Shown: positions 1,574 through 28,821 of the stretch, piece by piece | Numbering within the stretch: the stretch's first letter is position 1 | How the letters are laid out: each line of letters opens with the position of its first letter | Source of the DNA: Chloroflexota bacterium | Lineage (GTDB): Bacteria; Chloroflexota; Chloroflexia; Chloroflexales; Herpetosiphonaceae | NCBI GenBank assembly: GCA_020161265.1 | Contig: JAIUOC010000001.1 | Coordinates: 620,001-684,000, forward strand | Direction: 5' to 3' | Length of the DNA: 64,000 nucleotides | Notes under the pieces: model-generated | The model's input: the letters and a program-made list of their open reading frames with translations, nothing else | Told to the model about the DNA's origin: nothing | Databases searched by the model: none | Position numbers and translations under genes: made by a program

Positions 1574-1634
1574 TTGTTTGATCTCCTGATACGACGGCTA
1601 TAGCTTAGCATGGGCATGGAGAAAAAACAGTAAT

Positions 1635-1853: not shown

Positions 1854-1904
1854 TGGTTGTTACTCCTGAAATCATGATTATTTATCGATGACTTCAGGAT
1901 ATCG

Positions 1905-1935
1905 ATGTAATGTTGCAAAACCTGCAACATTACAT
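1905..1935. promoter_or_regulatory. Perfect 13-bp inverted repeat, putative operator of the Cas regulators
   Basis: Left arm ATGTAATGTTGCA (1905-1917), spacer AAACC, right arm TGCAACATTACAT (1923-1935). The arms are exactly complementary. The repeat lies 52 bp upstream of the 72-aa winged-helix gene, in its only possible promoter region. There is no T-run and no gene end here, so it is more like a dimeric regulator site than a terminator. A direct repeat TATCGATG (1883-1890, 1900-1907) and a TCCTGAA/TTCAGGA pair (1864-1870, 1893-1899) lie between it and the start codon. Confidence 0.7.
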
Positions 1936-1985
1936 TACCCAAAAAGTTTTATCTATTTAATATATCCAAAGGGGAATTAAATAAT

Positions 1986-2018
1986 AACGCCGCAGCTTTG
2001 GGGGTTAGCTGCGGCGTT
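1986..2018 (-). terminator. Hairpin downstream of the GH5 gene
   Basis: Stem arms AACGCCGCAGC (1986-1996) and GCTGCGGCGTT (2008-2018) pair perfectly around an 11-nt loop, 8 bp past the GH5 stop. On the minus strand an AT-rich tract follows, but not a long T-run. Confidence 0.7.
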
Positions 2019-2025
2019 GATACAG

Positions 2026-3105
2026 TTATTGATTCAAACCGAGGGCTTCGACCGTCAGCGCATCAATTTCACGCTGACCAGTCAGTTGGTTGACCACGCT
2101 AAATCCACCTGCATAATCCCACATCGTCCAGCCAATGTTAAATTCTTCAAGCACGCTGCGTAGATCATGCAACCACGCCGCTCGATCTTCGGGCTTGCTT
2201 TTGAAGCGATAAACCCCAAATTCGTTGCAGGTCAAACGTACCTGATGCTGTTCGGCCCAAGTCGCCGCTTGGCCAACCCACTCGCGCAGCGTATCAATGT
2301 TCCAGCGCTCGTTACCATAGTTAATTGCAGCATCACGCGCAACGTCGTCATCAATCGTCGCCACAATCGGGGCTAAAACTTCGGGACTCGATGGATAGGG
2401 CAAATATTCGAGATACGGCCAGTAGGGTGCGCCCCAAGTTGCCGCCTGATGGGTAAAGGTATGCGGATCATAACAGTGGAAATTGTAGATAATATTCGGA
2501 TCAGCCAATGGCTCAAGCTCTAACAACTCGGCAATGCTCGACCATTTATGACCAGTTGCAATCAGGGTGTGGTTGGGTGCGCCAGCCCGCATCGCCGCCA
2601 ACAATTCGGCTTGCACAAAGGCCCATTGCTGAGCATCGGTTACAACTGGCTCGTTTAACACTTCTAAAAAGAGCATTTCTGGATCACGCTGGGCCAAGTG
2701 AGTAGCTAAACTTTGCCAAAAGCTAGCAAAGGTTTTGACTAAGCTTGGCGAGCTAAATAAACGTTGCTTAAAATCATCCTCAGGGTGTAAATCGACAATT
2801 ACCGCCAAATCATGAGCCAACATCAAATCGATCACCCGATCAACTTCGGCCAAATAGCTGGGATTCAATTCGGTTGGATTGCTCTCATTCAAGAGTACAA
2901 CGGGGTTAAGCGTGAAGCGCAGATGACTACAACCAAGTTTGGCCAGCAGCGCAATATCGACCTCGGTATTGTACGTGCGCAAATGCTCCAAACTATATTG
3001 GTTGGTATAATCTTGGGCAAACCAATGGCTTAAATTGATGCCACGGGCTAACTTGGCAAACCGTGCATCACTAATCGCCGTTTTTGGGTTCGACAACGTT
3101 GTCAT
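2026..3105 (-). CDS. Glycoside hydrolase family 5 (endo-beta-glucanase/mannanase type)
   Basis: A 359-aa (beta/alpha)8-barrel hydrolase. The GH5 signature is visible: RFTLNP near residue 80, IVDLHPE near 120, LEVLNEPVV with the acid/base Glu near 167, YNFHCYDPHTF near 225, and TCNEFGVYRF with the nucleophile Glu near 300, then WTMWDYAGGF with the substrate-stacking Trp. No signal peptide is visible, so the enzyme is probably cytoplasmic and would act on imported oligosaccharides. ATG 3105 follows GAGGAA at suitable spacing. It is the last gene after the dipeptide-type importer on the same strand, separated from it by a terminator at 3123-3151, so it may have its own promoter. Exact specificity (cellulose, glucomannan, mannan) cannot be read from sequence. 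Confidence 0.88.
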   Translation of the reverse strand: MTTLSNPKTAISDARFAKLARGINLSHWFAQDYTNQYSLEHLRTYNTEVDIALLAKLGCSHLRFTLNPVVLLNESNPTELNPSYLAEVDRVIDLMLAHDLAVIVDLHPEDDFKQRLFSSPSLVKTFASFWQSLATHLAQRDPEMLFLEVLNEPVVTDAQQWAFVQAELLAAMRAGAPNHTLIATGHKWSSIAELLELEPLADPNIIYNFHCYDPHTFTHQAATWGAPYWPYLEYLPYPSSPEVLAPIVATIDDDVARDAAINYGNERWNIDTLREWVGQAATWAEQHQVRLTCNEFGVYRFKSKPEDRAAWLHDLRSVLEEFNIGWTMWDYAGGFSVVNQLTGQREIDALTVEALGLNQ

Positions 3106-4020: not shown

Positions 4021-5038
4021 TGAGCATCACCTCCGCTGCTGCATCATCACCTTGTTGGGCAGCCTTGACCACGGTATCAGCGTGGAAACAAGCCACCAGG
4101 TGATTGGGTTCGACCGTAGTTAATTCGGGCTTGCGTTCTTGGCAAACGCTGCTTTTGAAACGGCAGCGTGGCGCAAATGGGCAAGCTTTATGCACTTTTA
4201 AGGCACTTGGCGGGTTACCAGGAATCGGCTGGATGGCAGTTTTGCCGTGGCCAATTTCCATGGTGCTGTTGAGCAAACCCAAAGCATAGGGATGCGCTGT
4301 GTGCTCAACCAAACGATCAACACTGGTCATTTCGACAATTTCGCCAGCATACATCACCGCCAAATTATCGCAATAGTTGGTGGCCACGCCCAAATCGTGG
4401 GTAATAATAATCATGGCCATGCCCGTTTCGTCCTGCAACGATTCGAGTAGATCAAGCACTTGAGCTTGCACCGTTACGTCAAGTGCGGTGGTTGGCTCAT
4501 CGGCAATCAGCAATTTGGGTTTGAGCGCCAGCGCCAGTGCAATCATCACCCGTTGGCGCATGCCACCAGAAAATTGATAGGGATAATCGTTGAGCCGCTT
4601 GGCAGGCTGGGGAATCCCAACCCGATCAAGCAACTCAATCGCCCGTTCTTTGGCTTCGGCTGCCGAGTAAATTTTGCGCATGCGCATACTTTCGGTAATC
4701 TGCGCCCCAATTTTCATAATTGGGTTGAGGCTGGTCATGGGGTCTTGAAAGATCACCGCAATATCACGACCGCGCACATCTTGCAGCTCACGCGGAGCCA
4801 TTTTGACCAAATCAACCCCGTTGAAGACTGCCGAGCCACCGACTACGCGGCCAGTCCGGCCAATCAAACCAAGCAACGAAAGCATCGTCACCGATTTGCC
4901 CGAGCCAGATTCACCGACGATCCCGAGGCTTTGGCCTGCTTCAAGCGTAAAATTAACCCCGTTGACTGCATGCACCACGCCACCAGGCCGCTTGAACTCG
5001 ACTTTGAGATCCTTGACTTCCAATAATGGCGCACCCAT
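3995..5038 (-). CDS. Peptide/oligosaccharide ABC transporter ATP-binding protein (DppD/OppD type)
   Basis: A 347-aa ABC ATPase. It has Walker [10 protein letters not shown] near residue 46, Q-loop [11 protein letters not shown], signature [15 protein letters not shown], Walker [15 protein letters not shown] and H-loop IITHDLGV. The C-terminal oligopeptide extension carries four cysteines in CPFAPRC-x4-SVC-x22-C spacing, the position where Opp/Dpp ATPases bind a 4Fe-4S cluster. I take ATG 5038 (MGAPLLEV) as start: it overlaps the stop of the upstream permease by one base (TAATG), while the longer upstream reading would sit inside that gene. Confidence 0.93.
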
Positions 5039-5931
5039 TAGCGTTCCCCTTTCGTGTTGAAGATTTCTTGCAAGCCATCGCCAAACCAAGTAAAGGCTAA
5101 TAGCGTGATGCTAAACAAAAGGGTTGGCCAAACGGCTAAGTGCGGGAAGCCGCGCATTTTGCTAATCCCCAAGTTAATCAAGTTGCCCCACGATGGCTCT
5201 GGTGGTCGAATCCCAACCCCAATTACCGAAAGCCCAGCCTCGGCAACCATGGCATAGGGAATCCCAAAGCTCAGCGCCACCGCGATTGGGCCAAGAATGT
5301 TGGGCAACACATATTTGGTAATAATGTGCCATTCGCTTGCCCCCAGCGTGCGGGCAGCTTGCACATATTCCTGATTTTTCAACGAAAGCACTTGGCCGCG
5401 AATCAACCGCGCATAGCCCGCCCAGTTGGTAATCGCCAAAGCAATCACAATCGTGGTTACTTTTTGGCCGAGCGTCGTTGCCAAAATAATCGCTAACAAG
5501 GTCGAAGGAAACGAATTGAAAATCTCAACTAAGCGCATCAAAAAGGTGTCGGTTAAGCCACCGCGCATCCCTGAGACCGAGCCAATTGCTGCTCCGATAA
5601 TTAAGGATAGAATCGATGTACCCAAACCAACGATTGCCGCAGTTCGCACCGCATAAATAATTCGACTCAACTGATCACGGCCAACATCATCAGTTCCAAA
5701 CCAATGGGCGCTGGAAGGCTTTTGCCATGTTTCGGCCAAATTCTGATCGTTATAGTGATACGGTGCAATCACAGGGGCAAAGATGGCTAGGATGACAAAG
5801 ATGATGACCAAAACTAAGCCAACCAAGGCCATTGCATTACGGCGATAGCGCCGCCAAAACACCTTGAGCAGCGATTCCGCCACCGGAAGCTCCTCTTGGG
5901 CTGTAGGTTGTGAAAGCTGATTAACTGCCAT
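5038..5931 (-). CDS. Peptide/oligosaccharide ABC transporter permease (DppC type)
   Basis: A 297-aa inner-membrane permease. It has an N-terminal OppC_N segment with one membrane span (about 32-54, ALVGLVLVIIFVILAIFAPV), the WFGTDDVGRDQLSR motif that precedes the core, five further spans, and the EAA loop EYVQAARTLGASEWHIITKYVLPNILG near residues 185-212 that docks onto the ATPases. ATG 5931 has AAGGAG about 11 nt upstream. It forms the translocation channel with the DppB-type permease encoded 42 bp upstream. Confidence 0.93.
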   Translation of the reverse strand: MAVNQLSQPTAQEELPVAESLLKVFWRRYRRNAMALVGLVLVIIFVILAIFAPVIAPYHYNDQNLAETWQKPSSAHWFGTDDVGRDQLSRIIYAVRTAAIVGLGTSILSLIIGAAIGSVSGMRGGLTDTFLMRLVEIFNSFPSTLLAIILATTLGQKVTTIVIALAITNWAGYARLIRGQVLSLKNQEYVQAARTLGASEWHIITKYVLPNILGPIAVALSFGIPYAMVAEAGLSVIGVGIRPPEPSWGNLINLGISKMRGFPHLAVWPTLLFSITLLAFTWFGDGLQEIFNTKGER

Positions 5932-16343: not shown

Positions 16344-17324
16344 TTACAGATCTTTTTTGCGTCGAGCGAAGATGCTTTGGATACCAATAAAGATCAGCGT
16401 TAGCACGCCGACGCAAATCCGTGTCCACCACGAACTCAGCGTGCCATTGTACTGAAGGATGGAGATAATCGTTCCTTCGATCAGAATGCCAAACAATGTG
16501 CCGATTACATTGCCAACCCCGCCAGTGAGCAGCGTACCACCCATCACCACCGCCGCGATGACATCCAATTCAACCCCAGTCGCGAACTGCCCGTAGCCAG
16601 CGAGCAGCGAGATACTAAATACGATTCCGGCGAGAGCTGAGCAAAAGCCGCTGAAGGCATAAACCATGATTTTGGTACGGCCAACCGGAAAACCCATCAG
16701 GCCAGCCGACTGCTCGTTGTTGCCGATGGCATACATAATGCGGCCAAAACGGGTAAAGTAGGCAAGATGGATCGCCACAAGCAGCAGCAGCGGACCGACA
16801 AGGGTGGGAATGTAGACATAGGCTTTAGCAAAAAACGGAATATGGATTGGGGTAAGGGCAAGATATTTGTAAAATGGGTCGGTGATAGTGACCGATGTGA
16901 GGCTGATGATGTAGGCAAGGCCACGGGCAAAAAACAGACCCATCAGGGTAACGATGAACGGCTGCACTTTGAAAAAATGGATAATGCTGCCCAGTCCAAG
17001 CCCAATCGCTGTGCCCATGACCAGCATCAGCGGTATAACGACAGCTGCACTGACCCCCAATTTGAGCAGCGCAGCCGATGCCGCCGTCGTCAGTGCCAAG
17101 ACCCCACCCACCGAAAGGTCAATCCCTCCAGTGATAATCACAAAGGTCATACCGATCCCAACGATCAGCAGGAAGCCATTATTTATAAACAGGTTGAAAA
17201 ATGCCTGAGGCCGTTGCATAGCAGGATACAGTTGGGAACCAATGATATAGGCCATCAGAAAAATCGTAATTGTTGTCAGTAGCGGGCCATGCCGCAGGAC
17301 GGAAAGCTTCAGGCGTTGTGTCAT
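16344..17324 (-). CDS. yjfF: Sugar ABC transporter permease (YjfF type, galactofuranose-like)
   Basis: A 326-aa BPD_transp_2 permease with about nine membrane spans. The family motif IGMTFVIITGGIDLSVGGVLAL is near residues 57-78, and AVVMGGTLLTGGVGNVIGTLFG is near 235-256. The C-terminal GTLSSWWTRICVGVLTLIFIGIQ is a close match to what I know of E. coli YjfF (TLSSWWTKI). It pairs with the YtfT-type permease encoded 41 bp upstream to form the channel for a furanose or related sugar. Last gene of the operon; the hairpin at 16270-16308 follows. Confidence 0.9.
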   Translation of the reverse strand: MTQRLKLSVLRHGPLLTTITIFLMAYIIGSQLYPAMQRPQAFFNLFINNGFLLIVGIGMTFVIITGGIDLSVGGVLALTTAASAALLKLGVSAAVVIPLMLVMGTAIGLGLGSIIHFFKVQPFIVTLMGLFFARGLAYIISLTSVTITDPFYKYLALTPIHIPFFAKAYVYIPTLVGPLLLLVAIHLAYFTRFGRIMYAIGNNEQSAGLMGFPVGRTKIMVYAFSGFCSALAGIVFSISLLAGYGQFATGVELDVIAAVVMGGTLLTGGVGNVIGTLFGILIEGTIISILQYNGTLSSWWTRICVGVLTLIFIGIQSIFARRKKDL

Positions 17325-17365
17325 GGTGAATCCCTTTCAAAGCGGTGACTCGTAGCGATCCGCCG

Positions 17366-18472
17366 CTATGGGCGCGGGAGATCCAGTTTCTCGTCTGATG
17401 TCATCACATCCGGCTTGTTCTGATGATCCGCGCTCTTGCTACGGCGTTTGATCAGCCGACGATCGGAATAGAGCAGGATTACCAGCAGAACTAGCACTGC
17501 CCGTCCAGCGAGCAAGGCGTTTGCTGGCACTCCCAGCGCATACATCGAAAGCGTGAATGTCCAGATGACCATCGCGCCGATCACGCTCGCTAGGAGCGAA
17601 AAACGCCCACCAGACAACATCGTCCCACCCATCACAACGGCCAGAATTGCGTCCAGCTCATAGTTAAGGCCATTGTTGTTACCATCGGCACTATGCACGT
17701 AGGAGCTAAGGATCAATCCAGCGAGAGCGCTGCAAAAACCGCTAAACGTGTAGGCCAGCAACTGAATATTCTTGGCACTGATCCCACTATAATAGGTGGC
17801 TTTTGGATTAATCCCCACGGCCTCGATGAACAATCCGATCGGGGTTTTGCGCACACCAATCCAGGTGATGATTGCCACCGCTGCAACAATATAGATCGAT
17901 ACAGGCAGACCCAAGATGTAGCCGTTGCCAAACCAAAAGTAGGGCGTGTAGTAGATTGTGATAATCTGACCGTTGGTAATCAGCTGGGCAATACCCCGAC
18001 CAGCAACCATTAATATCAAGGTTGCCACCAGTGGCTGGATCTTAGCTCGCGAAACCAGCAGACCATTCCAAAGGCCGCACAACATCCCCGCCGCCAACGT
18101 TGCTAGCACGATGATTGCCAGCGGCGTATTGGTAGCGTTTCTGGTCAGGATCTCATTTGAGACCAACTTATCGGTCGGTGCGGGGTTGATCAGAACAGCA
18201 CCCATAGCTGCTGAGATCGCCATAACAGCTCCAACCGAAAGATCGATACCGCCAGTAGCAATCACCAGCGTCATCCCGATCGCCACCAGCATGAGCGGTG
18301 CACCATTATTCAGCACATCAATCAGATTGCCATAGAGATGACCATCTTGGATATTGATGCGAAAAAATTCGGGGATAAATAGCGCATTAAATCCAAGGAT
18401 AACCGCCCACGCGGTAAGCACCCAGAACAGGCGGCTTTCGCGAATCCGCTTGAAAGAAGCCTTGTAGTTCAT
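17366..18472 (-). CDS. ytfT: Sugar ABC transporter permease (YtfT type)
   Basis: A 368-aa BPD_transp_2 permease. It has the motif VAIGMTLVIATGGIDLSVGAVMAISAAMGA near 60-90, then GLLVSRAKIQPLVATLILMVAGRGIAQ near 140-165 and ILAVVMGGTMLSGGRFSLLASVIGA near 285-310. The last 40 residues are charged (RRSKSADHQNKP) and probably cytoplasmic. ATG 18472 overlaps the ATPase stop in an ATGA junction. It carries a periplasmic-side insertion around DKLVSNEILTRNATN, longer than in the partner permease. Confidence 0.9.
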   Translation of the reverse strand: MNYKASFKRIRESRLFWVLTAWAVILGFNALFIPEFFRINIQDGHLYGNLIDVLNNGAPLMLVAIGMTLVIATGGIDLSVGAVMAISAAMGAVLINPAPTDKLVSNEILTRNATNTPLAIIVLATLAAGMLCGLWNGLLVSRAKIQPLVATLILMVAGRGIAQLITNGQIITIYYTPYFWFGNGYILGLPVSIYIVAAVAIITWIGVRKTPIGLFIEAVGINPKATYYSGISAKNIQLLAYTFSGFCSALAGLILSSYVHSADGNNNGLNYELDAILAVVMGGTMLSGGRFSLLASVIGAMVIWTFTLSMYALGVPANALLAGRAVLVLLVILLYSDRRLIKRRSKSADHQNKPDVMTSDEKLDLPRP

Positions 18473-19983
18473 GCCTCACCTGCCATCGTTTGCATAAGAG
18501 TTCGATCACTGACTGAATGGTCGTACTCGGCCACTTTGGCGCGGTCGCGCAAGACTAGGATACGATCGCTGATCCGCACCACCTCTTCCAACTCGGAGGA
18601 AATAAACACGATTGACATGCCATCCTTAACTAATTCCAGCACCAACTTTTGAATCTCGGCCTTGGCACCTACATCAATGCCCCGCGTCGGTTCATCGAGA
18701 ATCAGCAGGCGTGGCTGGGTAACAAGCCAGCGAGCAAGAATAACCTTCTGTTGGTTGCCGCCGCTTAAGTTTTTAACCAACTGGTCGGGCGATGGCGTGC
18801 GAATACCAAGCAGTTTGATGTATTTCTCGGCAATCTCATATTGCTGCTGTTTGCCAATGAACCTGAACCAGCCATAACGTCCTTGCAAGCCAAGGATAAT
18901 ATTTTCACGAATGCTGAGATCGCCCACAATTCCCTCGGCCTTGCGATCCTCAGGACATAGCGCAACTCCACGCTTGATCGATTCTCGCGGAGAAAACCGC
19001 GCAACCGACTGCCCATCGACCAGCAATGTGCCACTATCAGGAGTCGCAATGCCAAAAAGCAGGCTTGCCAACTCGGTACGACCAGAGCCGAGCAGCCCTG
19101 CAATTCCAAGCACTTCACCAGCATTCATGGTCAGATCGAGTGGTTCCAGCATGCCGCTCAAGCCAAGACCGCTTGCATCGATCAATCGTCCCTGATCGGG
19201 CTGGCGCTCGACCTGCGTTTTGTCATGAGCCAGTGCCTGCAATTCGCCGACCACTCGCCCAAGCATTTTAGCCACTAGTTCAACCCGTGGGAGAGCTGCA
19301 ATATCGAAGCTGCCAACGAAGCTCCCATTGCGCAGAATAGTCACCCGATCAACGATTTCGTACACTTGATCTAAGAAATGCGTGACAAACACAACCCCGA
19401 TGCCCGCCTGCTTGAGCGCCCGCATGACCGCAAAAAGCCGCGCAGTTTCGTTAGCATCCAAGCTTGAGGTTGGTTCATCCAAGATTAGCACTTTGGCCGA
19501 GGCTATCTCAAGAGCGCGGGTGATCGCAACCATCTGTTGGATCGCGATCGAGTAGATGCCGAGCGGCTGCGTTACATCCAACTCGATACCAAGTCGTGCT
19601 AGGGCTTGGCGGGCCAATTCGTTCAGCTTTTTCCAGTAGATACCGCCAAAGCGCCGTGGCTCATGGCCGAGCATAATATTTTCGGCGACAGAAATATTCG
19701 TGCAAAGATTAATCTCTTGATACACCGTGCTGATGCCAAGCTCCTGCGCATGCTGCGGAGATTTGATGCGGATAGCCTTGTTTTCTAGCTCAATGCTGCC
19801 TGTGTCGGGCTGCTCCACCCCAGTAAGAATTTTGATCAGGGTAGATTTACCAGCACCGTTCTCGCCCATCAGGGCATGGATCTCGCCTTTTCGCAGCGTA
19901 AAATCGACACCTTCGAGGGCGACAACCCCGGGAAATGCTTTGGAAATACCTTTGACGGTGATAAGATTCTGCGGATCAGCCAT
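18469..19983 (-). CDS. ytfR: Sugar ABC transporter ATP-binding protein, two ABC domains (YtfR type)
   Basis: A 504-aa tandem ABC ATPase of the CUT2 class. The N-terminal domain has Walker A GENGAGKST near residue 39, VYQEINLC, Walker B VLILDEPTSSLD and VTHFLDQV. The C-terminal domain has a degenerate Walker A (LLGSGRTEL), CPEDRKAEGIVGD, signature LSGGNQQKVILARWL and Walker B LLILDEPTRGIDVGAK. Degeneracy of the second P-loop is normal for this class. ATG 19983 (MADPQNLITVKG) is chosen over an in-frame start 24 codons earlier that lacks homology. It is followed by ytfT with a 4-nt overlap. Confidence 0.93.
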   Translation of the reverse strand: MADPQNLITVKGISKAFPGVVALEGVDFTLRKGEIHALMGENGAGKSTLIKILTGVEQPDTGSIELENKAIRIKSPQHAQELGISTVYQEINLCTNISVAENIMLGHEPRRFGGIYWKKLNELARQALARLGIELDVTQPLGIYSIAIQQMVAITRALEIASAKVLILDEPTSSLDANETARLFAVMRALKQAGIGVVFVTHFLDQVYEIVDRVTILRNGSFVGSFDIAALPRVELVAKMLGRVVGELQALAHDKTQVERQPDQGRLIDASGLGLSGMLEPLDLTMNAGEVLGIAGLLGSGRTELASLLFGIATPDSGTLLVDGQSVARFSPRESIKRGVALCPEDRKAEGIVGDLSIRENIILGLQGRYGWFRFIGKQQQYEIAEKYIKLLGIRTPSPDQLVKNLSGGNQQKVILARWLVTQPRLLILDEPTRGIDVGAKAEIQKLVLELVKDGMSIVFISSELEEVVRISDRILVLRDRAKVAEYDHSVSDRTLMQTMAGEA

Positions 19984-20061
19984 AATGATCACTCGCCTTT
20001 CCCATATCGCCGATTGACCCCGCTGGGAGAGATGCGATATCTCCCCCAGCAGCATTGGCGG

Positions 20062-21063
20062 CTAGTATTTGCGCGTCGGCAACAGCTCTGCGGCGTTCTC
20101 TGGATAGTAGACCGTTTCATTGGTGATCACTTCTGGCTCAACTGGCTGACCGTTCATAAGCTTCAGCGCCAGTTCGAACACCTGTGGGCCAAGCAGTGGG
20201 TTACATTCAACATCGGCTTGAAACCAGCCATCAACCATAGCTTGGAAGCCACCGCGTGTGCCGTCTACCGACACAATCTTGAGATCGCCTGGTTGGACAC
20301 CAGCTGCCTTGAGGACTTCGATTGCGCCGATGCCCATATCGTCGTTGTGGATAAATAAACCTTGGAAATCTTTGCCAGGCGTGTATTTTTTCAGCAGCGC
20401 CTGCATCACAGGGACGGCCTCAGCCCGAGTGAAATTACCAGTTTGCGAGTCGAGGATAGTGATATTGGAGTTGAGTTTGTTGCGCAAACCCTTGGCTCGC
20501 CCGACTGCTGCACCGGAGCCAGTGGTTCCTGAGAGTTCGAGAATCACGCCGCCGTTTGGCATCATCTTGTTGAACTCTGCGGCAGCTCGCTCGCCTTCCA
20601 ACACCATATTGGAACCGATGTGGGTGCTATACAGGGATTTATCGGCGCTCACGCTGCGGTCAACAATAATCACTGGAATTCCAGCATTCTTAGCCTCGGT
20701 CAGAACAGCATCCCAGCCATCCTCAACCACTGGTGGCAGGGCAATCACATCCACGCCCTGCTGGATACAGGCACGCACGGCGGAAATTTGATTTTCTTGT
20801 TTCTGTTGGGCATCAGAGAAGACGAGTTGTTTAATTCCAAGAGTTGCCGCTGTTTCTTTGATCGAGGCGGTATTGGCGGTACGCCAGTCGCTTTCAGCTC
20901 CAAGCTGCGGATAGCACAGCACCATGTCGCTGTAGGTTTTCGCTCCCGCCGCTGGCGCGTTCGCCGATGGTGCAGTGGTAGCTTCCGAGGCACCGCAACC
21001 GGCCAAGCCGATGATAACCAGTAGCGCCAACAGACGCGTCGCGAATGATCGTGAAATACTCAT
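20062..21063 (-). CDS. ytfQ: Sugar-binding lipoprotein 1 (YtfQ type)
   Basis: A 333-aa Peripla_BP_4 receptor with lipobox LAGC (Cys23). The family core begins with KTYSDMVLCYPQLGAESDWRTANTASIKETA, and the ligand-contact segments GVDVIALPPVVEDGWD, NDDMGIGAIEVLKAAG and VDGTRGGFQAM are present. It ends ELLPTRKY. E. coli YtfQ binds galactofuranose and galactopyranose; the sugar here is unproven. A sister gene of identical length lies 182 bp upstream on the same strand. Confidence 0.92.
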   Translation of the reverse strand: MSISRSFATRLLALLVIIGLAGCGASEATTAPSANAPAAGAKTYSDMVLCYPQLGAESDWRTANTASIKETAATLGIKQLVFSDAQQKQENQISAVRACIQQGVDVIALPPVVEDGWDAVLTEAKNAGIPVIIVDRSVSADKSLYSTHIGSNMVLEGERAAAEFNKMMPNGGVILELSGTTGSGAAVGRAKGLRNKLNSNITILDSQTGNFTRAEAVPVMQALLKKYTPGKDFQGLFIHNDDMGIGAIEVLKAAGVQPGDLKIVSVDGTRGGFQAMVDGWFQADVECNPLLGPQVFELALKLMNGQPVEPEVITNETVYYPENAAELLPTRKY

Positions 21064-21245
21064 GGAACGTCCTCCTTAGAGAATAGAAAATCTGGCCAGC
21101 AAACCATTGTTCGCGATGAGAAATTTTTGCGTAGCTCTTCGCCAGGCACGGCGTGATACGCGGCACGCAACCTGTGCGAACCTAAGAATGATTAGTCACG
21201 CGGACTTCATAGCTCAAAAGGGTTTCAACAGTGGGAGGAAATTAC

Positions 21246-22247
21246 CTAATATTTGCGCCTAGGCAATTCCTGTGCGGCGGTATCCTGTCGGTATACGCCC
21301 TCGATCGGCTTGATCCATTTTTCGACTGGTGTGTCATTGGCCAAGTTCAGCGCCGTCTCGAAGAACAGTGGACCAAGCAGCGGGTTACACTCGATGGTAG
21401 CGTTCAGCTTGCCAGCGATCATCGCTTCGAAGGCGGCTCGTACCGCATCAATCGAAACAATCTTGATATCAATGCCAGGCCGTAGCCCATACTCCTCGAT
21501 CGCCTCGATCGCACCAAGCGCCATGTCATCGTTCTGAGCAAACACGCCGTCGATGCTGCTGCCATGCGTTTGCAGTAAGGCTGCCATTTCTTCTTTGCCA
21601 CGGGCGCGAATGAAATCGCCGGACTGGATGTCGATCACCTGCAGACCAGGATGTTCGCGCAGGCATTCCTGAAAGCCAGTGCCTCGTCCGATCATCGGTG
21701 CTGATCCTTGGGTTCCTTCCAAGATGATGATCGATCCTTGACCATCGAGCAGGCGGGCCATCTCGCCACAGGCCCGCCGACCCTCTTCAACAAAGTCCGA
21801 GCCGATTCGCACGCTATAGAGATCGTCGGGCACAGCGGCGTTGCGATCGAGCAGGATTAGCGGGATGCCGGCCTGTTTCACCTCGGCAAAAACCTCGTCC
21901 CAGCCCGTCTCAACCACTGGCGAAACTCCGATAACATCGACACCTTGGGCAATAAATGAACGGATGGCCTTGATCTGGTTTTCCTGCTGTTGCTGGGCAT
22001 CGGAAAGATCCAATTCGACCCCGAGCAGGTTCGCCGTATCTTGGATCGAGCGCGTGTTGGCGGTGCGCCACTCGCTTTCGGCTCCGATTTGGGCAAACCC
22101 GACAACCAACTCAGGATAGGTTTTGGTCTGAACATCGAGTGGGGATGCTGTTGCTCCGCTGGTACTAGGCGAGGAGCCGCCGCACGCCGCCAGAGTCAAC
22201 ACCATAGACAGTGCGATGACGCGGCGGTAGAGTGCAAGGGCTTTCAT
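21246..22247 (-). CDS. Sugar-binding lipoprotein 2 (YtfQ type), tandem paralogue
   Basis: A 333-aa paralogue with lipobox LAAC (Cys22). It has the same block order as its neighbour: GFAQIGAESEWRTANTRSI, GVDVIGVSPVVETGWDEV, NDDMALGAIEAIEEYG, IDAVRAAFEAM, and ending ELPRRKY. Diverged residues in the hinge and pocket segments (for example PLILLDRNAAVPDDLYSVRIGSDF against PVIIVDRSVSADKSLYSTHIGSNM) fit different sugar preferences, which is inference. It is the first gene of the operon, with a promoter at 22323-22350 and three direct repeats further upstream. Confidence 0.92.
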   Translation of the reverse strand: MKALALYRRVIALSMVLTLAACGGSSPSTSGATASPLDVQTKTYPELVVGFAQIGAESEWRTANTRSIQDTANLLGVELDLSDAQQQQENQIKAIRSFIAQGVDVIGVSPVVETGWDEVFAEVKQAGIPLILLDRNAAVPDDLYSVRIGSDFVEEGRRACGEMARLLDGQGSIIILEGTQGSAPMIGRGTGFQECLREHPGLQVIDIQSGDFIRARGKEEMAALLQTHGSSIDGVFAQNDDMALGAIEAIEEYGLRPGIDIKIVSIDAVRAAFEAMIAGKLNATIECNPLLGPLFFETALNLANDTPVEKWIKPIEGVYRQDTAAQELPRRKY

Positions 22248-22322
22248 TGGGGAGCGCCTCCTTTGGCGATTTCCAGACCAGACGTGGTCGGTAGATCAAC
22301 TGATCGATGGGCTACTGTGGTT

Positions 22323-22350
22323 AGTATAGCAGTTGGCCGGGAGCGAACAA
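22323..22350 (-). promoter_or_regulatory. Predicted sigma-70 promoter of the sugar ABC operon
   Basis: On the minus strand TTGTTC (22345-22350) and TATACT (22323-22328) are separated by 16 bp, about 75 bp before the first ytfQ-type start. Confidence 0.6.
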
Positions 22351-22385
22351 GCGTTATTCCTACGCAGAATATCCGCTATTTTAAC

Positions 22386-22438
22386 GATTTTTTACCGATC
22401 GCAGTGTATGATTTTTTAGCCTGGTGTTCGATTTTTTA
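22386..22438. repeat. Three direct repeats GATTTTTTA upstream of the sugar operon promoter
   Basis: Identical 9-mers at 22386-22394, 22410-22418 and 22430-22438 (TAAAAAATC on the operon's sense strand), with start-to-start spacing of 24 and 20 bp. They begin 36 bp upstream of the predicted -35, a typical place for an activator. The nearby YesN-type regulator is a candidate binder (inference). Confidence 0.6.
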
Positions 22439-22622
22439 CGATTATAAGGTATGACCCACAACCAATGGGTCGCATACCCTTGATCATAATTCTTGTCACG
22501 ATCACGCCAACCCACACGGGACGACCCTCGATGAGGTACTGGTGCTCCATCCTAAACTCTACTTTTCGGAGCATGTCACAGACCATTTCCGCTGTGTCCC
22601 GTTTTCAAGCCAAGCATACGTC
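22439..22622. other. 184-bp gap between sugar operon and SDR gene
   Basis: An imperfect inverted repeat, GGTATGACCCA (22449-22459) against TGGGTCGCATACC (22467-22479), could terminate the SDR transcript. A minus-strand 56-codon open frame ending near 22421 has no recognised match and no start signal, so it is not called. Confidence 0.3.
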
Positions 22623-23420
22623 TCACCGATCCTCGATTAGGCTGGATTTTGCCAAATCGTTGGCGATGGACTTATTCACCTGCTTCAGGATAAAAGTCGG
22701 TGCAAAACGGCTCATCAGCTTCATGATGTTGCTCATGCCTGGCCGAATTTCGGTGGTGTCGTGTTCGAGTTGCTCCAGAGCTACGCGCACCATCTTATCA
22801 ACATTCATCACGATTGGACTCTTACTATTGAGGGTGTCGGAACCCAAGTTCTCCAGTAATGGGGTGATGGTGGCAGGCGGAGCCAGTTCAACTACCGTAA
22901 CACTCGTATCGTGCAGCTGGATGCGGAGGGATTGGGTATAGGAATGCAAGCCAGCCTTTGCAGCGCTGTAAATAGGAGAACTGGCCAAAGGTACAAAGGC
23001 CAGCAATGACGAGGTATTAATGATGGTGGCATGGGGCTTTGTTTTGAGAAACGGCAAGAATTGCTCGATCATGCGCACTGGTCCAAGCAGATCGACCTCA
23101 ATCTCACGGCCAATGTCCTGTAATCCAATCCGCCCGTTCAGCCGCAGCGTTCGCATCACACCAGCGTTATTGATCAGCATATTCAGATCAGGAAACTCGT
23201 TCGTCACGCGTTCATAGAGTGCGGCAATTGCCGCCGGATCACTAACATCGCTTTGATAGGTCTGTACCCCTGGAATATGTTCGTGGATGGCTCGGAGTTT
23301 ATTGGGGTCTCGTCCGGTCACGAGAATGGTATTCTGTCGTTGGTGGAGTTGCTTGGCGAGTTCCAAGCCAATACCGCTCGTTCCGCCCGTGATAAGGATT
23401 GTGTTTGCTGAAAGTTTCAT
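22623..23420 (-). CDS. Short-chain dehydrogenase/reductase (DltE-like)
   Basis: A 265-aa classical SDR. It has the cofactor loop TGGTSGIG at about residues 11-18, Arg in TGRDPNKL (NADP preference), DVSD near 58, NNAG near 88, catalytic Ser in INTSSLLAF near 140 and YSAAK near 153-157. The complete Ser-Tyr-Lys set is present. Start ATG 23420 (MKLSANTIL) is preferred; the upstream extension lacks SDR homology. The type resembles the DltE-like subgroup of unspecific oxidoreductases. It sits between the sugar operon and the MarR locus, and no functional link is apparent. Confidence 0.85.
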   Translation of the reverse strand: MKLSANTILITGGTSGIGLELAKQLHQRQNTILVTGRDPNKLRAIHEHIPGVQTYQSDVSDPAAIAALYERVTNEFPDLNMLINNAGVMRTLRLNGRIGLQDIGREIEVDLLGPVRMIEQFLPFLKTKPHATIINTSSLLAFVPLASSPIYSAAKAGLHSYTQSLRIQLHDTSVTVVELAPPATITPLLENLGSDTLNSKSPIVMNVDKMVRVALEQLEHDTTEIRPGMSNIMKLMSRFAPTFILKQVNKSIANDLAKSSLIEDR

Positions 23421-23625
23421 GAGACCTTTTGCCTTTCTATCAGCAGCGATCAGGCGCAATCGCTGCAATGCATAGTTAAAGATGCAACCGCGCATTCAAA
23501 AAATCAGTCGAGAACGCATAGGCTATTATCTGAGGATGTATTGGCGTGATTGGATCGGCATGCAGATACGCACCATCCTTACCGTGATCGACTAGATTAG
23601 CCTACGCGTAACAGCGCCTTCTCAC

Positions 23626-24978
23626 TCAGGCCGCGAAGCAGGCACGAAACACCTTCATCAGCCGCAGCGAGCCGCGTAATCGTAGCTTGCGCCGGATAAG
23701 CGCCCATGCTGGGGTGCGATCGCCAGCCACGATCGCCAGCCACGTCTGACTGTCGGCAGCAATCCGCAGGTCGGCATGGCCGACGCAGCCCTCCGTGATC
23801 ATCACTCGCTTCCTCGAATCAGGCCCGTCGCCAATGCTGATGGTTGCCGCATAGTCCTCGGCACCGCTGAAAACCAGATGGTAGATCGCGTTTACCCCTT
23901 CGGCAGCCGCCGGACGGAAAACCCGCGGCAGGCTTTTGACGAAGGATTCGACTGAGGAAAAGCGGATGCCACTGCCGACCCGCTTAACCCGCTTGTGAGG
24001 AAAGCGCCGCCGCACATAGGCCGCCGTCGTTTCGGCTGATACGTAGATGGTTTCGACCTTATCTTGCAACGGCTTGACCACCTCCTTCAGAAAGCCAGCC
24101 CGATTAGTCAGAAAAGGCGCGATAACGTCATCACCAGCTGGACAGACGGCGATGCAGTAGGCCGCCTTATAAGAGGCTCCAAAGCTGAGGCTTTGCCACA
24201 TCGAGGCTGTCTCACTCGCCGAGGTGCGCTCGTAATAGGTCGGGGCATCTTTGCTTGACACGAGCGTTTCCACCCAATCGTTGAAGCCGCCCATAAACTC
24301 GCGATAATTGTGGGTAAAACAGGCTCCGAAGTCGAAGTCGCCAGATGGACTGATTGCACCAACTGGGCAGGCCGCCACGCAGAGCTTGCATTCCAGACAG
24401 GGATTGTAATCGATCGGTTTGCTCTCTTCCCCAATGACGGCATCGGTGACAATCGTACCCAGCAAGATAAAGTTGCCGAAGCGCGGGTGAATCACGTTGC
24501 GGTGAATTCCCATCTGCCCAAGTCCCGCCGCTACCGCCACCGGTTTGTGCGAGATGATCCAGCTTTTGCCAGGAAACCGCTCGACTTCCATCGGAAAGCC
24601 GCTAGCCGGATTGGCCGCACGCACGCCCTGTGCCTCTAGCGCCGCGACAATCGTATGCGCTGCCGCTTCGGCGTGATCAACCGTGTGGTGGAACTCCAGA
24701 TTGGCAACCGATCGCGCCGGGCTGCGGATCGGCTCGCGATTCATGCGGCAGACGATACTAATCAGGCTGCGTGCCCAAGGAAAATTTTCCAAGATCTCGG
24801 CTCGCTGATTGTCAAGCTCGGCCCGATCGATGGATACGAAGCCCACATCGTCTGCACCAGAGTCGAGGCAAAGCTCGCGGAGTGTCGCATCGGCCAGCCT
24901 CGGCGATTCCTCGTTTGACTGCGCAGCCCGCTCTCGTTTGAAACGCAGCACCGTCGGATGATTCTGCAAATGAGCCAT
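23626..24978 (-). CDS. 4Fe-4S reductase-like protein fused to a C-terminal SCP2-like domain
   Basis: A 450-aa protein. Residues about 25-230 resemble the epoxyqueuosine reductase/reductive dehalogenase fold (GADDVGFVSIDR, FPWARSLISIVCRMN, GLGQMGIHRNVIHPRFGNFILLGTIVTD). The ferredoxin motif CLECKLCVAACPVG follows near 240, and a second Cys group CIAVCPAG near 310. From about 350 a domain resembling SCP2 sterol-carrier proteins begins (IYHLVFSGAEDYAATISIGDG; ADSQTWLAIVAGDRTPAWALIRRKLRLRG). The combination suggests a membrane-lipid or hydrophobic-substrate redox enzyme. ATG 24978 has GGAG 8 nt upstream; a MarR-like operator is 14 nt before that, and the MarR gene lies directly upstream. Confidence 0.75.
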   Translation of the reverse strand: MAHLQNHPTVLRFKRERAAQSNEESPRLADATLRELCLDSGADDVGFVSIDRAELDNQRAEILENFPWARSLISIVCRMNREPIRSPARSVANLEFHHTVDHAEAAAHTIVAALEAQGVRAANPASGFPMEVERFPGKSWIISHKPVAVAAGLGQMGIHRNVIHPRFGNFILLGTIVTDAVIGEESKPIDYNPCLECKLCVAACPVGAISPSGDFDFGACFTHNYREFMGGFNDWVETLVSSKDAPTYYERTSASETASMWQSLSFGASYKAAYCIAVCPAGDDVIAPFLTNRAGFLKEVVKPLQDKVETIYVSAETTAAYVRRRFPHKRVKRVGSGIRFSSVESFVKSLPRVFRPAAAEGVNAIYHLVFSGAEDYAATISIGDGPDSRKRVMITEGCVGHADLRIAADSQTWLAIVAGDRTPAWALIRRKLRLRGSLRLMKVFRACFAA

Positions 24979-24991
24979 AGATACTCCAAAT

Positions 24992-25011
24992 ATAAGTGCA
25001 TATACACGTAA
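24992..25011. promoter_or_regulatory. MarR-type operator before the 4Fe-4S/SCP2 gene
   Basis: The 20-mer at 24992-25011 matches the MarR gene's own upstream site (25475-25494) at 18 of 20 positions. Its core GTGCATATACAC differs by one base from a perfect palindrome. It lies in the 46-bp gap between the MarR stop and the target start. Confidence 0.7.
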
Positions 25012-25024
25012 ATGATCAAAAAAA

Positions 25025-25459
25025 TTAGCGAACCCCATGGCGCAGCATTTTTAGCCTGTCGAGTAAATCGCCGAACTGATCGCTACCAAGCACCGCGACA
25101 ACCTGTTTTTGTGCCTGCTCCCAAAGCGGCAGCGCCTCCTCAAGCGCCACAACACCTCGAGCAGTGATCGCCACCCGGCGGCGGCGGCCATCGCCATCGG
25201 GCTGGTCTTCGACCAAGCCATCGCGCTGGAGCGCCCGAAGATTGCGGGTCAGGGTAGTCCGATCCATCCCAAGCGCCTCGGCGAGCTGTCCCATGCCACG
25301 AGGTCCGATCAGCGCCAGCGTACCCAGCAGGGTAAACTGGCTACAATGGAGGCCGGTCTCCTTGAGTGCATCGTCATATACTTGCGTCACAATCCTGGCC
25401 GTCCGCCGTAGGTTGGCGCAGGCGCAAAAACGCAATTCGGCTAACACGTTGGATTCCAT
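25025..25459 (-). CDS. MarR-family transcriptional repressor
   Basis: A 144-aa winged-helix regulator. The N-terminal helix ELRFCACANLRRTARIVTQ is the dimerisation helix. The recognition helix region is LAEALGMDRTTLTRNLRALQRDGLVE, followed by the wing DQPDGDGRRRRVAITARG. The final helix carries EEALPLWEQAQKQV. ATG 25459 has AAGGA 6 nt upstream and is preferred over upstream in-frame starts. A perfect 12-bp palindrome lies 20 bp before it, and a near copy lies before the next gene, so it likely represses itself and the 4Fe-4S/SCP2 gene and releases on a phenolic or oxidising ligand (family knowledge plus inference). Confidence 0.9.
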   Translation of the reverse strand: MESNVLAELRFCACANLRRTARIVTQVYDDALKETGLHCSQFTLLGTLALIGPRGMGQLAEALGMDRTTLTRNLRALQRDGLVEDQPDGDGRRRRVAITARGVVALEEALPLWEQAQKQVVAVLGSDQFGDLLDRLKMLRHGVR

Positions 25460-25474
25460 CGGCATTCCTTCAAG

Positions 25475-25494
25475 ATAAGTGCATATGCACATAA
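25475..25494. promoter_or_regulatory. MarR autoregulatory operator
   Basis: Perfect 12-bp palindrome GTGCATATGCAC at 25479-25490 within a 20-mer shared with 24992-25011. It overlaps the likely promoter region of the MarR gene. Confidence 0.75.
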
Positions 25495-25648
25495 CTATAC
25501 GTTATTGATAGCCCACCTGTCAAGCGTGCGGTACAAAATCAGAGCCAAGGCCGACAAGCCAGACGGGGCAGGTTGGCTTCGATCGCCCGTCGGACTTGCG
25601 GCAAATTGTGCTGCTTGATATCCATAACCCCATACCTCATTGCTCGTG

Positions 25649-27199
25649 CTAAGAAGTAGCAAGCGACAACGATGGTTGTGCGGTGCTGCCACGCTGCCGT
25701 GGGATGATCAGGACCACACATGTGCCACGCCCATGTTCGCTTTCGATCGACAGCCCATAGTCGGAGCCATAGTAGAGCTTGATCCGCTGATTGACATTGC
25801 TGATGCCGTAGCCATCCTCAACGACCTGCATAGCACCTGTCATCCAGAGGTTGCCCGCTGCCAGCAGCTCCCGCACATGGGCCAGCCGTTCTTGCGTCAT
25901 GCCAATACCGTTGTCCTCGACCTCGATTTGCAGCCGATCAGCATCGAGCCAGCGGCCACGCACCACAATAGTGCCGCCATTGCGCTTATTCTTGATTCCG
26001 TGATAGAGCGCATTTTCCACCAACGGTTGGAGGGTCAACTTGAGCATCTCGCTACTACGGGTGTCATCGGGAATGTCGATCTGGTAGTCGAGGATATCGC
26101 GGTAGCGAATCTTTTGGATCGTCAGATAACTTTCGATATGGGCAATCTCATCATGAACCGTGATCCAATCTTTACCTTTACTCAGCGTGATTCGGAAGAA
26201 ACGCGACAACGCCGCAACCAGATCGACGATCTGCGCTGTGCGCTTGGCTTCGGCCATCCAGATAATCGCATCAAGGGTGTTGTAAAGAAAATGCGGATTG
26301 ATCTGAGCCTGCAGCACTCGTAGCTCGGCCTTTTTGAGGTTCTCGTGTTCCTCAAGCTTGGCATCGAGCAATTCCTTGATCTTGCCGACCATGATGTTGA
26401 AGCTTAACCCTAGCTCGGTGATCTCATCGGCGTTATCAGCAATTACCAGCGCCTCAAGATCCTGACGAGCAATCGTTGTAGTAACGTCGTGCAGCTTCTT
26501 GATTGGAACATAGATACTTTTTGAGATTCGCCAGGCAGCAACGATTGAGAAGAGGATCGAGGTCATAATCACCGCTAGGCCACCGATCGCCCAGCGGGTC
26601 AGGTCGCTTTGCATAGCCTGATATTGTTGTTGAGTACGATTAACCTCGAAGAGCGCATACGCCTGCACATTACCCTCAATGAGCTGGGTGATGCTGCGAA
26701 TCTCTTCCATCAGCACCAAATTCTCAGCAAAAGTTTTGTTCTGGGCGATCTGAATGCCGACCTGATCGATCGAACTGCGCAGCGTTTGCAGCGTGTGCTG
26801 AATAATTCGCAGTTTGACTCGACCCTTTTCCGAGCTGGAGTTATCGATCATCTGCTCAATACGATGATCAACATCACTCAGGGTTGCATATTGAGTACCT
26901 TGGGCAAATGGTTTCTTGCCAGCGATAATTTCCCAGATCTCGGCATCAATCGATGGCTTGATATAACCGTTAATGCTATTAGCAGTGGTAATGTTCTGAA
27001 TAAGCACATCATATTGGGTTTTGTATTCTAGGCCAGGGACGATTAGGAAGATATATGGCACGCTCATCAGGATGACCACCATCAGCAATGCCAGCAGAAT
27101 TTTATCGCGGATGGAAAGTCGCAGACGTAACCGAGGAGCCACAGCTCGTTTAGCCAATGCGACTGCGATAGGCTCACGATTTGACAAATGCTCATCCAT
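25649..27199 (-). CDS. Two-component sensor histidine kinase (YesM/LytS-type)
   Basis: A 516-aa membrane kinase. Span 1 is near residues 33-54 (KILLALLMVVILMSVPYIFLIV), an extracytoplasmic sensor region covers about 55-200, and span 2 is near 207-230. A HAMP-like linker (KSIYVPIKKLHDVTTTIARQD) follows. The His_kinase box is LQAQINPHFLYNTLDAI near 300 with the phospho-His, and the ATP-binding N box (LVENALYHGIKNKR) and G box (VEDNGIGMT) come after. ATG 27199 follows AGAGGA at 8 nt. It is co-directional with the YesN-type regulator encoded 39 bp upstream. Such pairs commonly control sugar ABC operons. Confidence 0.92.
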   Translation of the reverse strand: MDEHLSNREPIAVALAKRAVAPRLRLRLSIRDKILLALLMVVILMSVPYIFLIVPGLEYKTQYDVLIQNITTANSINGYIKPSIDAEIWEIIAGKKPFAQGTQYATLSDVDHRIEQMIDNSSSEKGRVKLRIIQHTLQTLRSSIDQVGIQIAQNKTFAENLVLMEEIRSITQLIEGNVQAYALFEVNRTQQQYQAMQSDLTRWAIGGLAVIMTSILFSIVAAWRISKSIYVPIKKLHDVTTTIARQDLEALVIADNADEITELGLSFNIMVGKIKELLDAKLEEHENLKKAELRVLQAQINPHFLYNTLDAIIWMAEAKRTAQIVDLVAALSRFFRITLSKGKDWITVHDEIAHIESYLTIQKIRYRDILDYQIDIPDDTRSSEMLKLTLQPLVENALYHGIKNKRNGGTIVVRGRWLDADRLQIEVEDNGIGMTQERLAHVRELLAAGNLWMTGAMQVVEDGYGISNVNQRIKLYYGSDYGLSIESEHGRGTCVVLIIPRQRGSTAQPSLSLATS

Positions 27200-27238
27200 C
27201 ACACATATCCTCTCGCAATCTAGATGCGCTAGTTTTCG

Positions 27239-28486
27239 CTAGGAGTGTCGGCGGAATTCATTAGGTGGTTGCCCAACAACCTTACGAAACACCGAGTAGA
27301 AATAGCGCGGGTTCTGATAGCCAATGCGATAGGCGATCTCGCTGGCAGTCAGCGAGGTTGAGCGCAGAAGTTCGATAGCCTTGCGCATACGGACATGGGT
27401 CAGGTAGTCAATAAAGGTCTCGCCAACCTCGCGCCGAAAGACGGCGCTGAAATAGGTTGGGCTGAGTAACACATGAGCAGCTGCCTGGCCCAGCGACATC
27501 GCAGGATCTGCATAGTTGGCATCAATATAAGCGCGGGCTTTCATAATGATTGCACCGCCGTGGAGTTGATCGTGGTCGTATGGCTCGACTTCCACTGGGA
27601 GTTCGATTGGGTGCTCGATCTGCGCCAGCGCCTGCGAAAACGATTGGGAGATCAAGCTGAGTCGCTCGGTTGGGTCGCCGCTGCCAATCATAGCCCGACA
27701 GCCAATTTGCTCGGCCACGCGCTGGCGCAGGGCAGCAGCCAGTCCATCCGCTCGCTGGAGCACATCAACTCGGGTTGAACCCTTGATAATCAAGATCGTA
27801 TCTTCCATGCCATGCTTAAAGGCCACAACCGACCGCGATTCGCCCAGAATTGCGGCGACGATCACATCGATCTGTTGATAGACGGCATATAGCGGCGCTG
27901 TTGTGGCGCTAGGCGGCATGGCGTGCATCACCAGCACCTGATACCATGGTGCCAAAAGATCAATTTCAAGGCTACGTGCTTGCTCCATAAAGTCGGTTGT
28001 CGAGCTACTACCAGCTACAAGGTCAAGCAGACAGCGTTCGCGCAACACTGGTTGATGATTAGACATCTGCGTTTGAAGGGCATCTAGCTGTTCCCGAGCT
28101 TGGCGTTCCTGATCGATCTGACCAGCGATCTTGCGCAACGCCGCTAGCAGATCTTGGGCAACAATCGGTTTAAGTAGGTATTCAGTAACCCCGATTTGGA
28201 TTGCTTCCTGAGCGTAGCGAAACTCATCATGGCCGCTGAGGATCATGATTTTCGTCGTCGGCAGCGTCTCCTTCAAAATTCGGCAGAGCTGTAGGCCATC
28301 CATAAACGGCATTTTAATATCAGTAATCACGATATCGGGCCGTCGCTCACGGATAATTGGGAGGGCAATTTCACCATCCGAAGCCTCGCCGCAAAACTGA
28401 TAGCCCGCCGCTGCCCAGTCAATCGCGTCGCGAATCCCTTCACGGGCTATGATCTCGTCCTCGACTAAAAAAACTTTGTAGTTCAT
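27239..28486 (-). CDS. Response regulator with AraC-type DNA-binding domain (YesN type)
   Basis: A 415-aa protein. The receiver (about 1-120) has acidic pocket EDE, phospho-acceptor Asp in VITDIKMP near 55, Ser/Thr in ILSGHDE and Lys in YLLKPIV. The middle is a variable region with YesN-type linker sequence. The C-terminal AraC domain (about 315-412) has two HTHs, MSLGQAAAHVLLSPTYFSAVF and EIAYRIGYQNPRYFYSVFR. ATG 28486 (MNYKVFL) is preferred to a start 11 codons earlier. Together with the kinase it probably controls the dual-receptor sugar operon about 5 kb away on the same strand (inference). Confidence 0.92.
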   Translation of the reverse strand: MNYKVFLVEDEIIAREGIRDAIDWAAAGYQFCGEASDGEIALPIIRERRPDIVITDIKMPFMDGLQLCRILKETLPTTKIMILSGHDEFRYAQEAIQIGVTEYLLKPIVAQDLLAALRKIAGQIDQERQAREQLDALQTQMSNHQPVLRERCLLDLVAGSSSTTDFMEQARSLEIDLLAPWYQVLVMHAMPPSATTAPLYAVYQQIDVIVAAILGESRSVVAFKHGMEDTILIIKGSTRVDVLQRADGLAAALRQRVAEQIGCRAMIGSGDPTERLSLISQSFSQALAQIEHPIELPVEVEPYDHDQLHGGAIIMKARAYIDANYADPAMSLGQAAAHVLLSPTYFSAVFRREVGETFIDYLTHVRMRKAIELLRSTSLTASEIAYRIGYQNPRYFYSVFRKVVGQPPNEFRRHS

Positions 28487-28821
28487 CGTTGCGCCTCTCA
28501 TGCATCGTCGCACGATCATCGTCGTCTAGCGCCTCAGATATTTAAAAGCAAAGCATACACGAAAAATAATATTTTGGAACTAACATTGTATCTCGGCCAG
28601 CGCATGTGCCAAGTCAATGGAACCCTCACGATTCGGTAGGAGATTAATCCAAGGCTCTTCCTTTCTTTATCACGCGCTCATCACTAGTATACCAAGGGTG
28701 TCGATTGGGCATCCCATCCTAATAAATGGGGCCAACGCCTCCGTGCTTGCAATGGAATGTATAATCGTGCTAGCTTTCTCCAGTTTGGGGAAACCAACCG
28801 AGCTACGTGAAAGGATCGTGT
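28487..28821. other. 335-bp divergent intergenic region
   Basis: It separates the yesN-type gene (minus) from an SDR (plus). AT-rich near 28545-28590. No strong palindrome or coding frame was seen beyond a promoter-length gap. Confidence 0.4.

Follow-up and report, generated by a model that had tools for sequence, protein, structure and literature searches.

A cross-phylum palindromic operator marks an apparently mobile cassette pairing a MosR-like MarR regulator with a QueG/RdhA-like 4Fe-4S protein fused to SCP2

The DNA analysed here, a 64-kb stretch from a Chloroflexota genome (hereafter the window), carries a gene for a QueG/RdhA-like 4Fe-4S protein fused to an SCP2 domain, a MarR-family gene ahead of it, and a palindromic operator in front of each of the two genes. 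Judged by its phylogenetic footprint, this operator is a real regulatory element. Together with a short-chain dehydrogenase gene, both genes lie in an inserted cassette (Table 1). We tentatively explain the whole, with a confidence that stops a little short of even, as a mobile and self-regulated redox-detoxification cassette, its substrate class left broad and its cofactor probably cobalamin.

Table 1. Features of the cassette and its surroundings, in window coordinates
Feature	Position	Strand	Basis and remarks
Operator 1	25475..25494	-	Palindromic, core GTGCATATGCAC, ahead of marR; cross-phylum footprint
Operator 2	24992..25011	-	Core GTGTATATGCAC on the - strand, in the marR-enzyme gap; equivalent site in relatives
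Putative marR promoter, TTGACA - 18 - TATAGT	25494..25523	-	Consensus match, 11/12 to sigma-70
MarR-family repressor, 144 aa, MosR-like	25025..25459	-	Cys12-Ala-Cys14 at the start of helix 1; Pfam MarR_2
QueG/RdhA-like 4Fe-4S protein fused to SCP2, 450 aa	23626..24978	-	Family alignment and fold
N-terminal core, residues about 21-339, class III cobalamin-enzyme fold	23962..24918	-	VIA-align on core model
First ferredoxin motif, C194-x2-C197-x2-C200-x3-C204-P	24367..24399	-	37-member alignment
Second ferredoxin motif, A272-A-Y-C275-x3-C279-P	24142..24165	-	Lacks, at position 272, the cysteine present in the GCDxC of QueG
SCP2 domain, residues about 340-450	23629..23961	-	Pfam SCP2 in relatives, and fold
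Short-chain dehydrogenase/reductase, 265 aa, third cassette gene	22623..23420	-	Pfam adh_short 2e-41
Inserted cassette, approximate borders	22446..25648	.	Present here, absent at the same place in five other Herpetosiphon genomes

Operators and their phylogenetic footprint

The two operator 20-mers, ATAAGTGCATATGCACATAA for operator 1 and ATAAGTGCATATACACGTAA for operator 2, differ at 2 of 20 positions, which confirms the 18 identities reported in an earlier note on this DNA, as well as their placement ahead of marR and of the enzyme gene. Both are near-palindromes, and they are the sole matches at up to three mismatches in the window, shuffled sequences giving 0.00. The -10 box of the marR promoter abuts operator 1, the promoter coming before the operator when the minus strand is read. 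Since the enzyme coding sequence starts at 24978, operator 2 falls within the 46 bp that separate marR from the enzyme gene, 14-33 bp ahead of the enzyme start codon; no clear -35/-10 pair was found upstream of this gene. The start is given by the family alignment, which begins at MAxLxxHPTV, and a Shine-Dalgarno-like TTTGGAG lies upstream of it. The longer reading from 25038, a 470-aa ORF, was rejected because homology begins at 24978.

Our comparison covers 39 non-redundant loci with a gene for a relative of the enzyme; 22 of them have a nearby homologue of the window MarR and 17 do not. We counted as a site any sequence with at least 9/10 matches to TGTATATACA. The MarR loci (114 kb) contain 38 such sites, against a single one in the loci without MarR (98 kb), giving a Fisher p of 6e-8 for events that are not independent, the loci sharing ancestry. 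Shuffled MarR loci yield 0-2 sites in total. Nearly all the sites (37/38, including that of L045 at a marR start) lie where marR, the enzyme gene or the operon containing it begins, and this pattern extends over Chloroflexota, Acidobacteriota, Methylomirabilota, Pseudomonadota, Cyanobacteriota and Planctomycetota. Tandem loci across several phyla display two sites each, at the marR and enzyme or operon starts, and in three loci the second operator stands before an operon led by another gene, thioredoxin (L003) or a short-chain dehydrogenase (L013, L046). A chance origin of the operators is ruled out by the shuffles together with the cross-locus footprint. Note that our search of open-licence papers found no operator TGTATATACA linked to a MarR.

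These data support the view that two matching operators serve the MarR and that it has a single main target gene, and the 'regulon of one' proposed in the earlier note proves nearly literal: the genome-wide scan of H. aurantiacus DSM 785 returned only two RTGTATATRCAY sites, both at the cassette locus. With a broader pattern, the window's own genome holds three further sites, all within ORFs, and a wide regulon in Herpetosiphon was discarded on these two results. Further such sites are present in Dictyobacter and in Chloroflexi AL-N1, not at obvious related gene starts. The claim that did not hold is that the enzyme is the only neighbour of marR, as a co-directional short-chain dehydrogenase gene lies within the same insert and, in two of the relatives, directly follows the second operator.

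A MosR-like regulator with a cysteine pair on helix 1

The window MarR scores 38.9 bits with Pfam MarR_2 (cutoff 27); this winged-helix domain and the palindromic operator near its own promoter place it in the MarR family, and its start is best read as 25459. By sequence match to the PDB, the closest solved structure is 4fx0/4fx4 (E 5e-24), that is, MosR with its Cys10-Cys12 disulfide (PMC5823404). In M. tuberculosis, MosR uses this disulfide to sense oxidation, responding to H2O2, and controls the short-chain dehydrogenase Rv1050 (PMC11351531). The Cys12-Ala-Cys14 of the window protein, located at the start of helix 1 as in MosR, aligns with the CAC of 4fx0 at positions 6-8 of the chain as deposited, which we infer to be Cys10-Cys12 with an offset in numbering. 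The likeness to MosR (Rv1049) also extends to the regulation of an oxidoreductase; the main target here, however, is a QueG-like/SCP2 fusion.

Among cassette MarRs, the first cysteine is present in 23/23 and the CxC pair in 14/23. The other 9/23 have the first cysteine only, which excludes a CxC disulfide as a switch common to all. The kinship with MosR and the conserved CxC point to thiol oxidation, rather than a lipid-like, phenolic or quinone ligand, as the inducing signal, and by analogy with MosR we consider it probable that this MarR represses and is released through its thiols.

At about a fifth of the loci, a TetR takes the place of MarR. The TetR-bearing loci without MarR (L005, L008, L009, L017, L039, L041, L052, L062) have no TGTATATACA sites save one 9/10 match in L041. 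At another locus, L016, the same TetR N-terminal sequence occurs twice, in 194-aa ORFs at 281-862 and 4877-5458 that flank the enzyme gene, itself split between two frames.

Core fold, cysteine pattern and cofactor

The earlier description of a QueG-like 4Fe-4S protein fused to SCP2 is supported by both family alignment and fold. In the VIA-align search with the core model, the top 22 rows are all NpRdhA, QueG, PceA or the menaquinol RDH complex (Z 11.8-14.6), followed by the B12 chaperones CblC/CblD and then by flavin nitroreductases (Z about 7). One of the top matches, level with QueG and the best of those to NpRdhA, falls on the vestigial half of that protein (residues 70-233), which binds no cobalamin, and thus the fold alone does not prove cobalamin. 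The structure models are of moderate quality (mean pLDDT 66 and 62, below 50 in the Fe-S region), hence we drew no conclusions on ligand geometry from them. A sequence motif for cobalamin does not exist in class III enzymes (PMC4646009).

The protein combines a nitroreductase-type cobalamin-binding core, by fold, with a ferredoxin domain (Fer4 families in 13/13), and it retains seven of the eight cysteines that two [4Fe-4S] clusters require. In an alignment of 37 family members with 5 QueG-like paralogues, C194, C197 and C204 occur in 37/37 members and C200 in 36/37; with C220, C275 and C279 they make up the cysteines kept by the family. The eighth position, 272, is Ala or Ser in 36/37 and Cys solely in L060, the most divergent member. 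Its QueG equivalent is a ligand of the cobalamin-adjacent cluster according to the ligand assignment in PMC4646009. The catalytic residues and proton donors of QueG, Tyr101 and Asp130 in S. thermophilus numbering (PMC4646009), are likewise not retained, an invariant Phe96 (37/37) occupying the Tyr101 position and no conserved Asp matching Asp130. New invariant residues, H223-N224-Y225, K271 and Y274, surround the lost cysteine. The L060 protein (1495-2820, minus strand), with its eighth cysteine kept and SCP2 not detectable, may be near the ancestral form.

With QueG (TIGR00276), the enzyme shares the core fold (Z 14.4), the first ferredoxin motif, C220, C275, C279 and the His of DYH; it differs by the change of DYH to EFH, by the absence of the catalytic Asp and of one proximal-cluster Cys, and by a C-terminal domain that is SCP2. 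It scores 48.3 bits with the QueG model, against a cutoff of 200 (L002 reaches 53.5 bits), and a separate QueG-like paralogue is present in the same genome at L020. With RdhA (TIGR02486; PceA, NpRdhA, JtRdhA), it shares the core fold (Z 12-14.6) and differs by the SCP2 domain that replaces the duplicated core. Given the lost proximal-cluster Cys and the missing Tyr and Asp, the enzyme counts, by the curated models, as neither a QueG nor a dehalogenase. Its architecture is that of a class III enzyme, and so may be its mode of action, but it lies outside both named families. Its fold makes cobalamin a likely cofactor.

The first alternative is a core devoid of cobalamin, i.e. an electron-transfer or flavin-type protein in which an incomplete, site-differentiated Fe-S cluster would serve as catalytic centre. 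The near-invariant loss of the proximal-cluster Cys, the new invariant residues around it and the weaker fold match to flavin nitroreductases would fit such a protein. We hold this to be rather unlikely, as all the top fold matches are class III cobalamin enzymes, well above the flavin enzymes, and 7/8 cysteines are kept. The second alternative, a catabolic reductive dehalogenase for hydrophobic organohalides with the MarR relieved by a halogenated ligand instead of oxidation, draws on a core fold that ties with NpRdhA and PceA, on a TIGR02486 match at 5.9e-11, on the reductase fused to one member, as in self-sufficient catabolic RdhA (see below), and on the co-occurrence of MarR and reductive dehalogenase in many papers, as listed by a literature search. 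This match, however, amounts to 42.8 bits against a curated cutoff of 160.35, the proton-donor Tyr common to QueG and RdhA is absent from every one of the aligned members, and no halogen-related genes were seen among the neighbours, which makes a dehalogenase distinctly unlikely.

The SCP2 domain and the nature of the substrate

The SCP2 assignment proposed in the earlier note stands by way of the family: the window protein taken alone falls below the Pfam SCP2 cutoff (18.9 vs 21.3 bits), whereas the domain is found in 13/13 aligned members (best 1.6e-9), relatives score well above the cutoff, for example 42.7 bits, and a Priestia plasmid copy matches at 7.7e-11. The fold agrees with this profile evidence from relatives in placing the domain in the SCP2 superfamily. 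Over residues 340-450, Z ranges from 12 to 15, the predicted C-terminal domain reaching Z 14.1 to human MFE-2 SCP-2L (1ikt) and Z 15 to alkylsulfatase C-terminal domains. Unlike these known systems, the present SCP2 is joined to a 4Fe-4S redox core. The novelty claimed for the fusion is borne out in so far as our search of open-licence papers found none that pairs SCP2 with QueG or a reductive dehalogenase, nor any on the fusion, its regulator, its operator or the cassette. NCBI names the family proteins 'SCP2 sterol-binding domain-containing protein', after the SCP2 domain alone, and no NCBI equivalog for the enzyme was found. The sequence family is thus already on record at NCBI, with no description of fusion, regulator or cassette found in the papers searched.

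By analogy with other SCP2 proteins, the domain may bind a lipid or an acyl chain, which is consistent with the redox work on hydrophobic ligands suggested earlier. That SCP2 is merely a structural or oligomerisation module, the substrate being small and soluble, would agree with its C-terminal position in alkylsulfatases too and with its apparent absence from L039 and, by Pfam scan, from L058 and L060, but seems quite improbable given a full-length SCP2 in nearly all members scanned and closest folds (MFE-2 SCP-2L, alkylsulfatase C-terminal domains) that come from enzymes acting on alkyl chains. In two other Chloroflexota genomes (L038, L039), the members end before SCP2, and L038 also has an in-frame TAG. 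On the Priestia megaterium plasmids L041 and L042, the enzyme gene is accompanied by TetR, an ABC permease, a short-chain dehydrogenase, FabF and MaoC, neighbours that hint at a fatty-acyl substrate.

Electron supply and a possible mechanism

A Sulfitobacter member (L009:2995-5460, 822 aa) consists of the QueG-like core and SCP2 followed by FAD_binding_6, NAD_binding_1 and Fer2 (plant-type [2Fe-2S]) domains; self-sufficient reductive dehalogenases carry a fused reductase by the same logic (PMC10463259). In L003, the thioredoxin gene lies between the operator and the enzyme gene. The fused reductase and the thioredoxin argue for a reductive chemistry fed from NAD(P)H.

Within the cassette explanation that we favour, the MosR-like MarR dimer would bind the two near-identical palindromes, one at its own -10 box and the other ahead of the enzyme gene, and repress both genes; oxidation or modification of the CxC cysteines at helix 1 would, as in MosR, release it. 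The induced enzyme would then take electrons from a general donor through its ferredoxin-like clusters, the donor being the fused FAD/NAD(P)H-[2Fe-2S] reductase in one relative and possibly the thioredoxin encoded behind the operator in another. The electrons would reach a QueG/RdhA-like active site, which by fold probably holds cobalamin, and there reduce a hydrophobic substrate that the C-terminal SCP2 binds or presents; the short-chain dehydrogenase would perform a carbonyl/alcohol step in the same route. We lean slightly towards reductive catalysis on a hydrophobic substrate. As substrate class, lipid-like compounds that are oxidised or electrophilic (epoxide, hydroperoxide, quinone or organohalide) would be the likeliest, and that the substrate is both oxidised and lipid-like is a speculative proposal, somewhat on the unlikely side.

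A more specific version would see in this family cross-phylum cobalamin-dependent class III reductases, induced by thiol oxidation, in which SCP2 delivers the hydrophobic substrate to the corrin and a three-cysteine proximal cluster alters the redox chemistry, for the repair or detoxification of oxidised lipids. We know of no such reaction for B12 enzymes and regard this version with considerable doubt.

The authors of the QueG structure noted that further B12 and 4Fe-4S families may exist that a cobalamin sequence motif cannot find (PMC4646009). The present family is a concrete candidate, with SCP2 as a built-in clue to the substrate, with a natural NAD(P)H-reductase fusion (L009) suited to assays, and with a dedicated regulator that allows inducers to be screened. 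Both the recurrence of the operator across phyla and the mobility of the three genes as a cassette show that the parts are held together by selection.

A three-gene cassette that moves as one unit

The window segments 21008-22445 and 25649-28587, on either side of the cassette, are directly adjacent in five Herpetosiphon genomes (L090-L094), where the genes bordering the insert, encoding a YtfQ-like binding protein and a histidine kinase, are neighbours. In DSM 785, the same three genes are found about 180 kb off, window positions 22616-25525 aligning at 88.6%, and the site that they occupy there is empty in the window's genome. These reciprocal empty sites between two Herpetosiphon species indicate that marR, the enzyme gene and the short-chain dehydrogenase gene move as one 3-kb unit. 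We looked for terminal repeats at the insertion and found none, and there is no transposase ORF inside. Short-chain dehydrogenases adjoin the enzyme in 13/39 loci, as compared with none of about 18 unrelated 3-kb loci at E<1e-20 (one reaches 2e-18). As this background set is small and has shorter flanks, the enrichment can serve only as an indication, and the case for a unit rests more firmly on the reciprocal empty sites.

Full-length relatives of the enzyme, about 42-93% identical to the window protein, occur in about 1-3% of the genomes sampled in Chloroflexota, Acidobacteriota, Cyanobacteriota and Alphaproteobacteria, with single finds elsewhere; the viral contigs searched contained none. 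Plasmid copies are present in Priestia and Nostoc, and the family tree mixes phyla, MarR having been exchanged for TetR several times. Together with the presence of the cassette in 2/6 Herpetosiphon genomes searched, this low frequency, the plasmid copies, the mixed tree and the regulator swaps point to the horizontal spread of a useful but dispensable function.

The cassette splits a gene group that is contiguous in the other Herpetosiphon genomes. In the window (16344-22247 and 25649-28519), this group comprises two tandem YtfQ-like sugar-binding proteins before a galactofuranose-type ABC transporter, adjoining a two-component system made of a kinase and an AraC-type response regulator.
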